DNA of 43,710 nt from a virus. Each line of letters starts with the position of its first letter. Position 1 is the first letter of the stretch. Shown piece after piece: positions 8,879 to 33,642 of this stretch. The stretch is taken from IMG/VR virus record IMGVR_UViG_3300005471_000008, positions 1 through 43,710 of that record. One strand, given 5' to 3'. Under the pieces are notes generated by a model that saw only the letters and a program-made list of their open reading frames with translations, was not told the DNA's origin and did not search any database. The position numbers were made by a program, and so were the translations under genes.

Positions 8879-9105
8879 TGGTCACCCTGCTGAGCGTGGG
8901 CAACTCGGAGGGGGAGCGCCGCTGCGACGCCCGCTGCCACGAGGCCACCGAGCCTGACTGCGACTGCATCTGCGGTGGCCGCTACCACGGCAAGGGCCTC
9001 ACCCACGCCCGCCAGCAGCTCGGCCAGGACATGCGCGACGGCCGCTTCGGCGAAGACATCAAGGTGCTCGTCGAGAACCTGTGCGAGCAAGGACAGCTGC
9101 TATGA
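8878..9105 (+). CDS. Cys-rich hypothetical protein, 75 aa
   Basis: ATG in a TGATG junction. Residues about 15-35 form a dense Cys/His cluster (CDARCHEATEPDCDCICGGR) typical of a small metal-binding loop. A helical C-terminal half follows (THARQQLGQDMRDGRFGEDI). It directly precedes the methyltransferase (ATGA overlap at 9102). I recall similar Cys-rich proteins near phage methyltransferases, but no function can be assigned. Confidence 0.6.
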   Translation: MVTLLSVGNSEGERRCDARCHEATEPDCDCICGGRYHGKGLTHARQQLGQDMRDGRFGEDIKVLVENLCEQGQLL

Positions 9106-11042
9106 GCCTCGACCTGCTGGTCTACGATCAGTTCTGCGGCGCTGGCGGGTCCAGCCAGGGCATCCGCCGTACCGGCGCGATCGTGCGGCTGGCAATGAAC
9201 CACAACGCCACCGCGATCGCCAGCCACCAGGCGAACTTCCCCGACGTCGATCACGAATGCGAGGACGTCCGCAAGCTCGACCCGCGGAAGTTCCCCCGGG
9301 TCGACATCCTCGTCACCTCGCCAGAGTGCAAGGCCCACACCTACTCACGCGGCAAGGGCCGTCGTGACCAGGAAGAGCCGCTGTTCGAGACCGCCAAGGA
9401 GCGGGATGCGCGGCTGGCGGCGCAGCGCAGCCGCGCGACGATGGACCAGGTCACCCGCTGGATGTGCGCCCACCGCTACGAGGCCGTCATCCTCGAGAAC
9501 GTCGGCGAGCTGGTCGACTGGATCCCCTTCGACGCCTGGCTCCGCGAGGTCGACAAGCTCGGCTACCGGGTCCAGTTCTGCTGGTTCAACAGCATGTTCT
9601 TCGGCGGCCAGGACGACGGCCCCCACCCGCCGCAGTCCCGCGACCGCCTGTACTTGGTGCTCACCAAGAAGGGCAACCGCAAGCCCGATCTCGACTTCCG
9701 GCCGCGTGCCTGGTGCCCGGACTGCCAGACGGAGGTTGACGCGGTGCAGCGACTCAAAGACCCGCACCGGCGCCGGAAGATGTGCTATCGCCGCCAGTAC
9801 GACTACCGCTGCCCGACCTGCGGCGCCGAAGCGTCCCCCTACGTCGCGCCCGCCGCCACGGCGATCAACTGGGCGCTGCCGACCACCGTGATCGGGGAAC
9901 GGAAGTCCCCCCTCAAGCCCGCCACCATCGCGCGCATCCGGGAGGGACTGATCCGCTACGGGTGGGCGCCGCAAATGGTTCCTGTCGAGCGGCCCCACCG
10001 GCAGGGCGAGATCGAGGTGAAGGTTCCACGGCTGGCCAGCCTCCCGGCGCGGACCCAGACCGGCCGGAACGAAACCGGGGTGCTCCAGCCGCCGCTGATG
10101 ATCACCAACCGGATCCACTCGACCCCCAAGACGGTCGAGGACCCGATCACTACCATGCAGACGGGGCTGCACCACCTGCTGGTCACCGAGCGGCGCAACA
10201 CCGTCCCGCGCAGCCCGGAGGAGCCCGCGTCAACCATCGCTGCGGGCGGCACCCACCATCTGCTCGTGGAGCGCCCCGACGGGCTCGTCGTGTCGAACTA
10301 CTCGCCCGGGTGGGTGCGCCCCGCCGGGAAGTTGCCGACCGGCGCGATCACCGGTGTCGACCATCACGCACTGCTGCTGCCGACCAATGGGAACCTGCGC
10401 CGCGGCCGCGCCGCCCAGGAGGAGCCGGCGCCGACGCAGACCGGCGACAAAGGCAACGCTGTCATCCAGCTCCCCCTCATCGACGCCTACGACGGCCTCG
10501 CCCGCTCCGTCGACCGAGTCATGCCGACCCAGACCGGCGTGCAGGGCGACGGGCTGCTGGTGCCCTCCGGGGGCGGCTGGGCCGACCGCGCCACCGGCAC
10601 CGACGACCCGTTCCCCACCCAGACCGGCAAGGAATGCCGCGGGATGGTCCGCCTCCCCGACGGGATGGTCGTCCAAGTCGGTGGGAACACGTGGACCCGG
10701 CCCGGGTCGACGTGCCGGGTCCGCCCGGTGGAGTGGCCGATGCGCGCGCAAACCGGTACCCGCTCCGAGGCGCTGGTCACCATCCCGCCCGACTTCCTGC
10801 TTCCGTACCGGCCACCAGCTCCGCCGTTCCACGGCCAGGTCGACGCGGCCGCCCTCGACGAGCTCGTCAACGCATGCAGCTACCGCATGCTGACCTGGCA
10901 GGAGATCCGCTCGGTCATGGGGTTCGACCCCGGCTACATCCTGCACGGCAACGGCCGCGAGAAGGTCTACCAGCTCGGCCAGGCCGTCACCCCGCCCGTC
11001 ATGGCGTGGATCTTCCGCCGCGTTGCGGAGTCGCTGTCATGA
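9102..11042 (+). CDS. DNA cytosine-5 methyltransferase, phage type
   Basis: A 646-residue C5-methyltransferase. Motif I is FCGAGG (from residue 11); motif IV appears as TSPECKAHT with Cys76 the presumed nucleophile in place of the usual PPC; motif VI is LENV (Glu132); motif VIII is QSRDRLYLVL; motifs IX/X lie in RMLTWQEIRSVMGFDPGY and GQAVTPPV near the end. A zinc ribbon (CPDC ... CPTC, about residues 206-243) and a long region with repeated TQTG elements (starts near 318, 351, 445, 476, 506, 549) fill the recognition part. No restriction enzyme accompanies it, so it probably protects phage DNA from host cleavage. It overlaps neighbours on both sides. Confidence 0.93.
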   Translation: MSLDLLVYDQFCGAGGSSQGIRRTGAIVRLAMNHNATAIASHQANFPDVDHECEDVRKLDPRKFPRVDILVTSPECKAHTYSRGKGRRDQEEPLFETAKERDARLAAQRSRATMDQVTRWMCAHRYEAVILENVGELVDWIPFDAWLREVDKLGYRVQFCWFNSMFFGGQDDGPHPPQSRDRLYLVLTKKGNRKPDLDFRPRAWCPDCQTEVDAVQRLKDPHRRRKMCYRRQYDYRCPTCGAEASPYVAPAATAINWALPTTVIGERKSPLKPATIARIREGLIRYGWAPQMVPVERPHRQGEIEVKVPRLASLPARTQTGRNETGVLQPPLMITNRIHSTPKTVEDPITTMQTGLHHLLVTERRNTVPRSPEEPASTIAAGGTHHLLVERPDGLVVSNYSPGWVRPAGKLPTGAITGVDHHALLLPTNGNLRRGRAAQEEPAPTQTGDKGNAVIQLPLIDAYDGLARSVDRVMPTQTGVQGDGLLVPSGGGWADRATGTDDPFPTQTGKECRGMVRLPDGMVVQVGGNTWTRPGSTCRVRPVEWPMRAQTGTRSEALVTIPPDFLLPYRPPAPPFHGQVDAAALDELVNACSYRMLTWQEIRSVMGFDPGYILHGNGREKVYQLGQAVTPPVMAWIFRRVAESLS

Positions 11043-31360: not shown

Positions 31361-31792
31361 ATGCGGTCGCTGCTGCTGCGCCTCGCCCGCCAGCTCCCCC
31401 CGATCCTGCTCGAGGAGCCATGGGCGCTGTTCATCAAGACCGCCTGCATCCTGTCGGGGGTGACCTACCTGTTCCAGCTCGGCTCACCCAGCGCGATCAG
31501 CCGGCTGCTCCCCCCGTTCGTGGTCGCACTCTGGAACGTGGACCTGCTGCTCGGCGGCGCGCTCGGACTGGCCGGCCTGATCCGCCGGATACGCCGCTGG
31601 GAGGTCGCCGGCCTGTGCCTGCTCGGCGCGTCCACCGTCGTCTACGCCACGGTGATCCTGGCGGTCGCCGGGCGACGCGGCATCGTCGCCGCCCTGCTGA
31701 TCGGCTCGTTCGGCGTCGCAGCGTACCTGCGCGCGCTCGGCTCGTGGGCAGCCGGCGTTGCCATACGGGAGAGGGTCGACGGTGCCGGGTGA
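31361..31792 (+). CDS. Multi-span membrane protein, holin candidate, 143 aa
   Basis: ATG directly after the previous stop. After a basic amphipathic start (MRSLLLRLARQLPP) there are about four hydrophobic segments (ACILSGVTYLFQLG; LPPFVVALWNVDLLLGGALG; VAGLCLLGASTVVYATVILA; IVAALLIGSFGVAAYL). It opens the lysis cassette and overlaps the next membrane gene by GTGA at 31789. Likely a holin or related membrane protein that frees the endolysin; other tail-associated membrane roles are possible. Confidence 0.65.
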   Translation: MRSLLLRLARQLPPILLEEPWALFIKTACILSGVTYLFQLGSPSAISRLLPPFVVALWNVDLLLGGALGLAGLIRRIRRWEVAGLCLLGASTVVYATVILAVAGRRGIVAALLIGSFGVAAYLRALGSWAAGVAIRERVDGAG

Positions 31793-32028
31793 GAGAGTGG
31801 CTCGTCCCCATCGTCGCCAGCCTGCTGGGCGGCACGCTCATCCAGGGCCTGGTGCTGCTGCTGCGCGCCGGGCCGGACCGCCAGGCCGTCGTCGCCGGCG
31901 GCGCCGAGAAGGCCGTGCTGTCGCTGGAGCGGAGCCTCAGCCATGCGGAGCGGGAACGCGACCGGCTCGCCGCCCGCCTCGAGCTGGTCGAGGCCGAATA
32001 CGCCACCTATCGGAGGGAGCACCCCTGA
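31789..32028 (+). CDS. Single-span membrane protein with coiled coil, 79 aa
   Basis: GTG in a GTGA overlap. One N-terminal transmembrane segment (WLVPIVASLLGGTLIQGLVL) is followed by a charged helix likely to form a coiled coil (EKAVLSLERSLSHAERERDR; AARLELVEAEYATY). This arrangement is common for the second membrane protein of actinophage lysis cassettes (holin partner or spanin-like). It overlaps the Acb2-like gene (TGATG). Confidence 0.65.
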   Translation: MREWLVPIVASLLGGTLIQGLVLLLRAGPDRQAVVAGGAEKAVLSLERSLSHAERERDRLAARLELVEAEYATYRREHP

Positions 32029-32258
32029 TGGACCTTGAAGGCCGCCACCCGGCCACCGTGAGCATCGCCCGGTTCTTCGCCTACGACCACCTGCCGGAGC
32101 CGATGCGGACCATCTCCATGTACAGCGAAGCGCTGGCCGAGGCGATGATCCGTGAACTCCCGGACGGCCCGGAGCTGACCACTGGGCTGCGGAAGCTCCT
32201 GGAGGCCAAGGACTGCTTCGTCCGCGCCGCGCTTCCCACCGAGGACGGTGGGGGCTGA
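32028..32258 (+). CDS. Acb2/Tad1-hairpin-like protein, candidate anti-CBASS sponge
   Basis: A 76-residue, two-helix protein. FFAYDHLPEPMRTISMYSEA, then LAEAMIRELPDGPELTTGLR and KLLEAKDCFVRAAL follow the pattern of the Acb2/Tad1 hairpin family: HLP/HPP loop, long helix, PxGPE turn, LRKLxEAK helix. Known Acb2 proteins form hexamers that bind cyclic di- and trinucleotide signals and so silence CBASS and Thoeris-type defences. Family recognition is from sequence pattern; binding activity here is inference. It lies between two lysis-cassette genes, with TGATG junctions on both sides, so it is expressed late unless a separate promoter exists. Confidence 0.7.
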   Translation: MDLEGRHPATVSIARFFAYDHLPEPMRTISMYSEALAEAMIRELPDGPELTTGLRKLLEAKDCFVRAALPTEDGGG

Positions 32259-33295
32259 TGGCCATCACCCTCGGCATCGACGTCAGCTCCTACCAGGACC
32301 CGAGCGGGTCCGGCGACCGGAACCTGATCGACTGGAGCCAGGTCGCGCCCACCCCGTACGACTTCGCGCTCGCGCGGATGAGCATCGGTCGGGGCACCCT
32401 GGACGAGGACGGCCGGCAGAACCTCCGCGCGATGGGAGGCCGCATCCCCGTCCTGGGCGCCTACGGGGTCGTCGGCATCAGCGAGCCGGTCGAGGATGGC
32501 GCGAAGCTGCTCGTCGACGAGATCGCCGCGTGTGGCGTGGATCCGCGCAGCATCCTGGTGATGCTGGACGCGGAGAAGTTCGGGAACGGCTCCCACCCCT
32601 CGCGGCGGCAGATCAACCGGTACGCGATCCAGCTCCATACCGAGCTCGGCACCTGGCCCCACGCCTACGTCCCCGACTGGTTCCTCGACCAGCTCGCCGC
32701 CGCCGGCGACGGCGACGGGACGGTCCGCGGCCTGGAGCTGGCCAACTGCCTGTGGGTGCCGTCCGAGTACCTGCCGGCGCCGTGGACCGAGGACCGGATC
32801 CGGACCAAGCGGCCGACGAACCTGCGCGGCTTCGCAGGCCTGGCCTGGCACCAGTTCACCAGCTCCGGGTCGGTCCCGGGGATCACCGGCCGGGTCGACC
32901 TCAACTGCTACTACGGCACGCTCACCCAGCTCCGGGCCCAGCTGCTCGGCGGACAGGAGGAGATCGACTTGACCAAGCAGGAGTTCATCGAGGCGTGGCA
33001 GCAGCTCACCGCCCAGGGCATCATCTCGGGCCAGGACAACTGGGCCGACTACTTCCGGGTCGCCCCCGACCGGCTCGCCAAGATCCTCGCCCAGGAGGAG
33101 GCCAACGGGGCGGCGCTGGCCAAGCTGGGCACGCTCCTGGAGGCCGGGCTGAAAGTCGAGGTCACCCTCGACCTCGCCACCGCGTCGCCGCAGCAGCTCC
33201 AGGACCTCGGCAGCGCGATCGGTGACCGGCTCGCCATCCTTGGCGCCGGCTACACCGGCACGCTCGAGCTCACCCCGAAGACACCGGCGACGTGA
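32258..33295 (+). CDS. Endolysin, GH25 lysozyme
   Basis: A 345-residue muramidase. ITLGIDVSSYQDPSG contains the family's first acidic residue (Asp8), LVMLDAEKFGNG holds Asp104 and the catalytic Glu106, and AWHQFTSSGSVPGITGRVDL with DLNCYYG closes the barrel. From about residue 235 a helical C-terminal domain follows (KQEFIEAWQQLTAQGIISGQ), probably for wall or partner binding. No signal peptide, so export depends on the holin. It cleaves the peptidoglycan MurNAc-GlcNAc bond at the end of infection. Confidence 0.92.
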   Translation: MAITLGIDVSSYQDPSGSGDRNLIDWSQVAPTPYDFALARMSIGRGTLDEDGRQNLRAMGGRIPVLGAYGVVGISEPVEDGAKLLVDEIAACGVDPRSILVMLDAEKFGNGSHPSRRQINRYAIQLHTELGTWPHAYVPDWFLDQLAAAGDGDGTVRGLELANCLWVPSEYLPAPWTEDRIRTKRPTNLRGFAGLAWHQFTSSGSVPGITGRVDLNCYYGTLTQLRAQLLGGQEEIDLTKQEFIEAWQQLTAQGIISGQDNWADYFRVAPDRLAKILAQEEANGAALAKLGTLLEAGLKVEVTLDLATASPQQLQDLGSAIGDRLAILGAGYTGTLELTPKTPAT

Positions 33296-33642
33296 CCCTC
33301 GCGCACCCGCCCGGGGTCGACGTGGGCATGCGCCTCACCGGCGGCTACCCGCTGTGCCGCTGCGTGAAGTGGCACCGGCCGGTCCCGGCGGAGGAGGAGA
33401 GCCACCACATCGTCCCGGTCGGCGCCCCGTTCCACGGCCCCGAGCACGGCGACCAGGTGCTCCTGTGCCCGACCTCCCACAGTGCCGTCCACGCCTGCAT
33501 CCGGGTCCACCTGTACGCGGCCACGCAGGACCGGGCGCCGACCAAGCTGGAGCTGCGCCCCTTCACCAAGTACGTGCGGAAGCTGGCCGAGCAGGCGATG
33601 GACGCGCTCGGCCCGCAGGCCGAGATCCCCCTGGACCCCTGA
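33292..33642 (+). CDS. HNH-like nuclease fold protein, 116 aa
   Basis: GTG in a GTGA overlap with the endolysin. The core CRCVKWHRP, EESHHIVPVGAPFHG and VLLCPTSHSAVHACIRVHL carries the His pair, Cys and His residues of a treble-clef HNH-like domain, though the closing CxxC is modified (CPTSH). Positions of this kind after endolysins are known for phage HNH genes. It may be a DNA-cutting enzyme or a degenerate relative; catalytic state uncertain. Confidence 0.65.
   Translation: MTLAHPPGVDVGMRLTGGYPLCRCVKWHRPVPAEEESHHIVPVGAPFHGPEHGDQVLLCPTSHSAVHACIRVHLYAATQDRAPTKLELRPFTKYVRKLAEQAMDALGPQAEIPLDP

Follow-up and report, generated by a model that had tools for sequence, protein, structure and literature searches.

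We identified a 76-amino-acid (aa) protein, encoded in the lysis cassette of a 43.7 kb virus record, as a member of a widespread phage protein family that very probably shares both common descent and the helical-hairpin fold with the Acb2/Tad1 hairpin family (Pfam PF24729, Acb2_Tad1_hairpin). On the basis of structure modeling and profile comparison, the protein itself is probably small and cytosolic, folds as a helical hairpin and belongs to a family that is sister to the Acb2/Tad1 hairpins. The whole record was analyzed and is referred to as the window (43,710 nt, 70% GC).

The gene, its cassette and its family

A previous sequence-only reading had described a 76-residue protein with the motifs HLPEP, LPDGPE and LRKLLEAKD, located between a coiled-coil membrane protein and the endolysin and coupled to both by TGATG junctions. 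The ORF at 32028–32258 (+) carries all three motifs (residues 21–25, 44–49 and 54–62, respectively), and its neighbors are as described:

31361–31792, plus strand: 143-aa protein with multiple transmembrane (TM) segments at the start of the cassette, without family match
31789–32028, plus strand: 79-aa protein with a single hydrophobic segment at its N terminus and a coiled coil after it, without family match
32028–32258, plus strand: 76-aa gene, phrog_5120/1761 family, probable sister family of the Acb2/Tad1 hairpin (ORF, PHROG, AlphaFold2, hhalign)
32258–33295, plus strand: GH25 endolysin (Pfam PF01183, E = 2e-6; PHROG endolysin)

Both junctions of the gene are indeed TGATG overlaps. The stop codon of the 79-aa gene (32026–32028) overlaps the ATG of the 76-aa gene (32028–32030), and the stop codon of the latter (32256–32258) overlaps the ATG of the endolysin gene (32258–32260). 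At its upstream end, the 79-aa gene (31789–32028) has a GTGA overlap. A separate promoter had been considered for the 76-aa gene; a simple sigma-70-type scan, which excludes actinobacterial promoter types, revealed neither a separate promoter nor a terminator in the region from 30.8 to 34.4 kb.

The multi-TM protein (31361–31792) and the TM/coiled-coil protein (31789–32028) are holin candidates. The 3' end of the endolysin gene is overlapped by four bases by an ORF (33292–33642) for a small, possibly HNH-like protein (C-x-C..H-H-I-V..H) without family match. The window also encodes a large phage-type DNA methyltransferase (9081–11042; phrog_116, E = 1.5e-56), a possible anti-restriction gene.

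The 76-aa protein matches phrog_5120 (E = 3e-30) and phrog_1761 (E = 2e-23) and is a member of these groups, to neither of which PHROG assigns a function; compared to the 76-aa protein, the phrog_1761 profiles are longer and include extra N-terminal sequence. Using tblastn, we found the phrog_5120 family in 363 phage records, with hosts including Vibrio, Mycobacterium, Erwinia, Acinetobacter, Brevibacterium, Gordonia and others. The family was confirmed in at least 583 viral contigs, and 197 genome contigs from Actinomycetota, Pseudomonadota, Chloroflexota, Cyanobacteriota, Bacteroidota and further groups carry it as well. The gene had been assigned to an actinophage-type branch, a scope that is wrong, as the family is also carried by phages and prophages from Proteobacteria, Cyanobacteria, Chloroflexota, Bacteroidota and other groups. 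Nearly all of the matches inspected are annotated as "hypothetical protein", with the remaining annotations being no more informative, and we found no paper naming the family in the open-licence literature. When the lysis cassette (3.3 kb) was used as a query, the best matches to phage DNA, in the ten listed of 60 matching records, all fell within the 76-aa gene. PHROG matches, the presence in 363 phage records and a dN/dS of 0.17–0.52 (against ten relatives) establish the ORF as a real gene.

Some family members (L044, L145, L155, L164, L194 and L215) have N- or C-terminal extensions, which could represent fusions or, in some cases, mis-called starts. A BFVD match to the family, a protein of Ochrobactrum phage OH labelled as anti-TRAP-domain, is another possible fusion.

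Relationship to the Acb2/Tad1 hairpin family

Membership in PF24729 was defined by an HMM score above the curated cut-off of 27 bits. An HMM search gave no match for the 76-aa protein or any of 38 relatives, while T4 Acb2 scored 71 bits. A Pfam search of the 76-aa protein matched no family, and direct sequence searches against solved Acb2/Tad1 proteins yielded no match either. Its sequence matches in the PDB were designed helical bundles and chance matches.

Profile–profile comparison, on the other hand, linked the two families. We aligned the phrog_5120 family (177 sequences) with phage PF24729 sequences (101 sequences; set compiled from Streptomycetaceae genomes and viral contigs) using hhalign and obtained a probability of 94% (P = 1.8e-7, score 38), or 86% with smaller alignments. 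The match follows a single register in which F-x-[YF]..H, LA, P-D-G-x-E and L-x-K-L-x-E are common to both families. Column-shuffled controls (n = 150) reached a best score of 21.8 and the reversed profile 9.7, and none of 23 other families of short proteins encoded in the neighborhood at these loci exceeded a score of 18.7 or a probability of 4.9%. Against the same PF24729 profile, the T4 Acb2 family reached a probability of 63%, so that the link of the phrog_5120 family to PF24729 is stronger than that of the proven sponge T4 Acb2. The T4 Acb2 profile showed no link to the phrog_5120 family when compared directly (0.4%), and the two are bridged only via the broad phage PF24729 family.

The AlphaFold2 model of the 76-aa protein (39 sequences; pLDDT 94) predicts a short helix (residues 8–17) followed by an antiparallel helical hairpin (residues 26–43 and 48–67). 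The model of a PF24729 member (L276) has the same layout, with helices at residues 4–10, 19–42 and 47–69, and the PF24729 feature of a short N-terminal helix plus a long antiparallel hairpin is thus present in the model of the 76-aa protein. A Foldseek search against viral models retrieved the family itself first, followed by many proteins named "Acb2/Tad1 hairpin domain-containing" (E = 0.15–3; best E = 0.15, probability 0.99), mixed with unnamed ones. Helical hairpins are simple folds, a point that weighs against the relationship. Against the PDB, Foldseek did not retrieve Acb2 with the 76-aa model; we consider this search uninformative because the model of a genuine PF24729 protein did not retrieve Acb2 either.

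The aligned residues fall into a retained and a rebuilt part, located as follows:

32076–32090, plus strand: codons 17–21, F-A-Y-D-H, matching F-x-[YF]-H of PF24729
32157–32210, plus strand: codons 44–61, LPDGPELTTGLRKLLEAK, covering the turn and the first part of helix 2 (from alignment and conservation)
32211–32228, plus strand: codons 62–67, D-C-F-V-R-A, in the place of F-W-A-N-A of PF24729

Common to both families are F-x-[YFW]-x-H, LA, PxGxE and KLxEA. Y19, a position with Y, F or W in 162 of 177 sequences of the phrog_5120 family, aligns with the PF24729 aromatic residue that corresponds to Y8 in the dinucleotide pocket of T4 Acb2, a correspondence resting on Pfam alignment coordinates combined with hhalign. 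H21 (His in 174 of 177 sequences) aligns with a PF24729 His conserved in 99 of 100. Within codons 44–61, E49 and KL-EA are common to PF24729, and P48, R55 and K61 are specific to the phrog_5120 family.

The helix-2 signature R-E...T-K-L-E-E...W-A-N-A of PF24729 is missing from the 76-aa protein, which has P48-E49...R55-K-L-L-E...C-F-V-R. At the level of single positions, P48, R55, K61, D62, C63, V65 and R66 stand against R, T, M/V, F/M, W, N and A, so that the R/T/W/N signature becomes P/R/KDC/VR; the PF24729 invariants R42, W57 and N59 correspond to P48, C63 and V65. The position of T4 Acb2 T68 is T in 95 of 101 PF24729 sequences and the invariant R55 in the phrog_5120 family. In this family, E49, R55, K61 and D62 are invariant (100% of 174–177 sequences) and R66 is 99% conserved (174–175 members). 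K61 and the practically invariant D62 and R66 are new to it. In T4 Acb2, Y8A causes a binding defect and abolishes function, and T68M lowers binding (PMC12657230); the replacement of T68 by R55 counts against the sponge reading proposed below. We infer that the positions Y19, H21, R55, K61, D62 and R66 form a putative pocket in the phrog_5120 family.

Since the PF24729 HMM score stays under the cut-off and the helix-2 signature is absent, we place the phrog_5120 family as a sister family in the hairpin superfamily and not as a member of Acb2/Tad1. The designation "Acb2/Tad1-like" in the sequence-only reading therefore stands at the superfamily level, where profile–profile comparison with controls, the predicted fold and slot exchange (see below) support it; as a statement of membership it does not, given the missing PF24729 match and the missing R-E/T-K-L/W-A-N signature.

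The replaced residues also allow for a hairpin descendant with another role, binding a host protein, a nucleic acid or an NAD-type metabolite without acting as a sponge. The invariant charged residues R55, K61, D62 and R66, which replace the PF24729 T/W/N signature, would fit such a role, as would a conservation across phyla above what is usual for an arms-race gene. The retained F-x-aromatic-x-H, with its aromatic residue at T4 Acb2 Y8, and the slot in which a PF24729 gene takes the place of this one suggest instead that the type of function was kept, and we regard a change of role as rather unlikely.

Genomic slots and accessory presence

Comparison of genomic slots served as a positional test independent of the gene's own sequence. 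In two loci (L053 and L071), the phrog_5120 family gene directly follows a PD-(D/E)XK nuclease gene and precedes a conserved one, and in a third (L276) the same two flanks enclose a PF24729 gene (E = 2e-18). Relative to L276, the aa identities in L053 and L071 are 71% and 61% for the upstream nuclease and 82% and 63% for the downstream gene. The slots do not coincide to the base: L276 has a gap of about 170 bases between the nuclease and the PF24729 gene, and in L071 an additional ORF precedes the downstream gene common to these loci. Additionally, both families have neighbors from the same PHROGs, namely terminase large subunit (phrog_2, 9), portal (phrog_12, 2662), head protease (phrog_18402) and endolysin (phrog_880, 1493). 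Because the neighboring ORFs come from mechanical calling and slots of this kind may also hold other small accessory genes, we consider the slots supportive and not proof.

The phrog_5120 family gene is accessory. The surrounding sequence shows about 79% identity between Gordonia phages Gustav and Trine; the insertion in Gustav is precise, and Trine and Jojo24 are cleanly without the gene. This presence/absence between two minor tail genes (Gustav, L369; Trine, L376; Jojo24, L377) constitutes a natural experiment, with Gordonia terrae 3612 as one laboratory host for all three phages.

None of 50 phages with a phrog_5120 family gene had a PF24729 match over the cut-off, and one of them carries a sub-threshold third hairpin. 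This divergent hairpin (RLTEAKMWANTAL; PF24729, 21 bits) was found in L366, a virus record also holding L200, and possibly represents a further branch. Among 299 Streptomycetaceae genomes, 12, including some seed genomes, carry the phrog_5120 family, 9 carry PF24729 and one carries both, all of these being small numbers.

The location of the gene invites the reading that its product is a lysis component, e.g., a cytosolic lysis-timing regulator acting with the TM/coiled-coil protein and the endolysin. In the window it is translationally coupled between the genes of these two, and in Gordonia phage Jumbo it is flanked on both sides by lysin A genes, with overlaps of 4 bases; endolysin and holin families are among its commonest neighbors. 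However, the family occurs equally beside terminase, portal and head protease genes, and it is also found in the right arm of mycobacteriophages (BigNuz and AlanGrant), beside the PD-(D/E)XK nuclease and, in one locus, between head morphogenesis and capsid genes. Trine and Jojo24 do without the gene yet retain their endolysin and tail genes, and of the lysis genes in the window only the endolysin recurs, in the locus of one relative (L003) and in another order. A role in lysis is therefore improbable. The lysis cassette had been called an unexpected place for an anti-defense gene; PF24729 genes use the same late slots as the phrog_5120 family, Jumbo and Gustav carry the family at lysin A and at the tail/lysis junction, respectively, and with right-arm and other slots on record the lysis cassette is one location among several and no anomaly.

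In relatives of Jumbo, a PF24729 gene in the lysin slot was considered and rejected: GMA3 has an HNH gene there and GordTnk2 a gene for an 88-aa protein. The accessory slot between the lysin A genes (L367, Jumbo; L374, GMA3; L375, GordTnk2) hence has three different occupants.

A small accessory of head/tail assembly or packaging, e.g., a chaperone or connector helper, would account for terminase large subunit, portal and head maturation protease as frequent neighbors. Such a role is very unlikely, as the gene is also found in lysis, replication and right-arm modules, related phages are cleanly without it, and PF24729 sponge-type genes occur in the same slots.

Proposed function and comparison with known systems

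The phrog_5120 family probably functions as a sponge that takes up an immune signal of an anionic, nucleotide-like kind. The 76-aa protein would oligomerize, as Acb2/Tad1 proteins do, and the oligomer may sequester an anionic nucleotide-derived signal of host CBASS, Thoeris or a related defense, whereby the defense effector would stay inactive before lysis. Translational coupling inside the lysis operon would result in late production, which would suit signals made once capsids accumulate. As the invariant residues differ from those of PF24729, the ligand or ligand set probably differs as well. According to a review, Acb2 acts in prophage induction and not in lysogeny (PMC12043709); late expression would thus be compatible with an anti-defense role.

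More tentatively, we consider it possible, at close to even chances, that the family represents a large unnamed class of phage sponges in many phyla, in which the Acb2/Tad1 scaffold has a pocket rebuilt with charged residues (R55, K61, D62, R66) to take another immune nucleotide and whose genes can exchange positions with those of the Acb2 type. The gene is present as "hypothetical" in at least several hundred phages and prophages from many phyla, and the invariant charged residues offer a direct, testable candidate pocket. If it is a sponge, the family would be among the widest anti-defense families, with a specificity outside those of Acb2, Tad1, Tad2 and Acb4, and would predict nucleotide signals that actinomycete phages must neutralize. 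Defense signaling in actinomycetes is little studied.

Acb2 (anti-CBASS 2; Vs.4 of phage T4 and Acb2 of Pseudomonas phage, PDB 7UQ2/8H2J; Pfam PF24729) forms a homo-hexamer with three sites for dinucleotides and two for trinucleotides, binds cyclic di- or trinucleotides and blocks CBASS. Acb2 genes have reportedly been announced for mycobacteriophages Xandras and BigBubba and Microbacterium phage Statler, whose sequences lie outside our comparison with the phrog_5120 family. Like the 76-aa protein, Acb2 is small and phage-encoded and consists of a short N-terminal helix and two antiparallel helices; the aromatic residue at T4 Y8 and the profile homology of the phrog_5120 family to the phage PF24729 family add to the likeness. 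In contrast, the 76-aa protein has no match to the Acb2 HMM, T4 T68 is R55, and W-A-N of helix 2 is changed to K-D-C-x-V-R. Hexamer formation and cyclic-nucleotide binding characterize Acb2, whereas the 76-aa protein is known here from its sequence and a monomer model.

Tad1 (Thoeris anti-defense 1), which has the same Pfam hairpin name, binds gcADPR and resembles the 76-aa protein in its C-terminal helical hairpin. It possesses an additional N-terminal beta-sheet (PMC12043709). This antiparallel sheet distinguishes Tad1 from the strand-free 76-aa model, and there is no sequence match between the two. Acb4, the SPO1 family of more than 1,300 sponges (PMC11722364), is likewise a widespread family of small phage sponges, a likeness that is a functional analogy only. 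Acb4 is a tetramer with beta strands, structurally unlike Acb2 and unrelated to the helical 76-aa protein.
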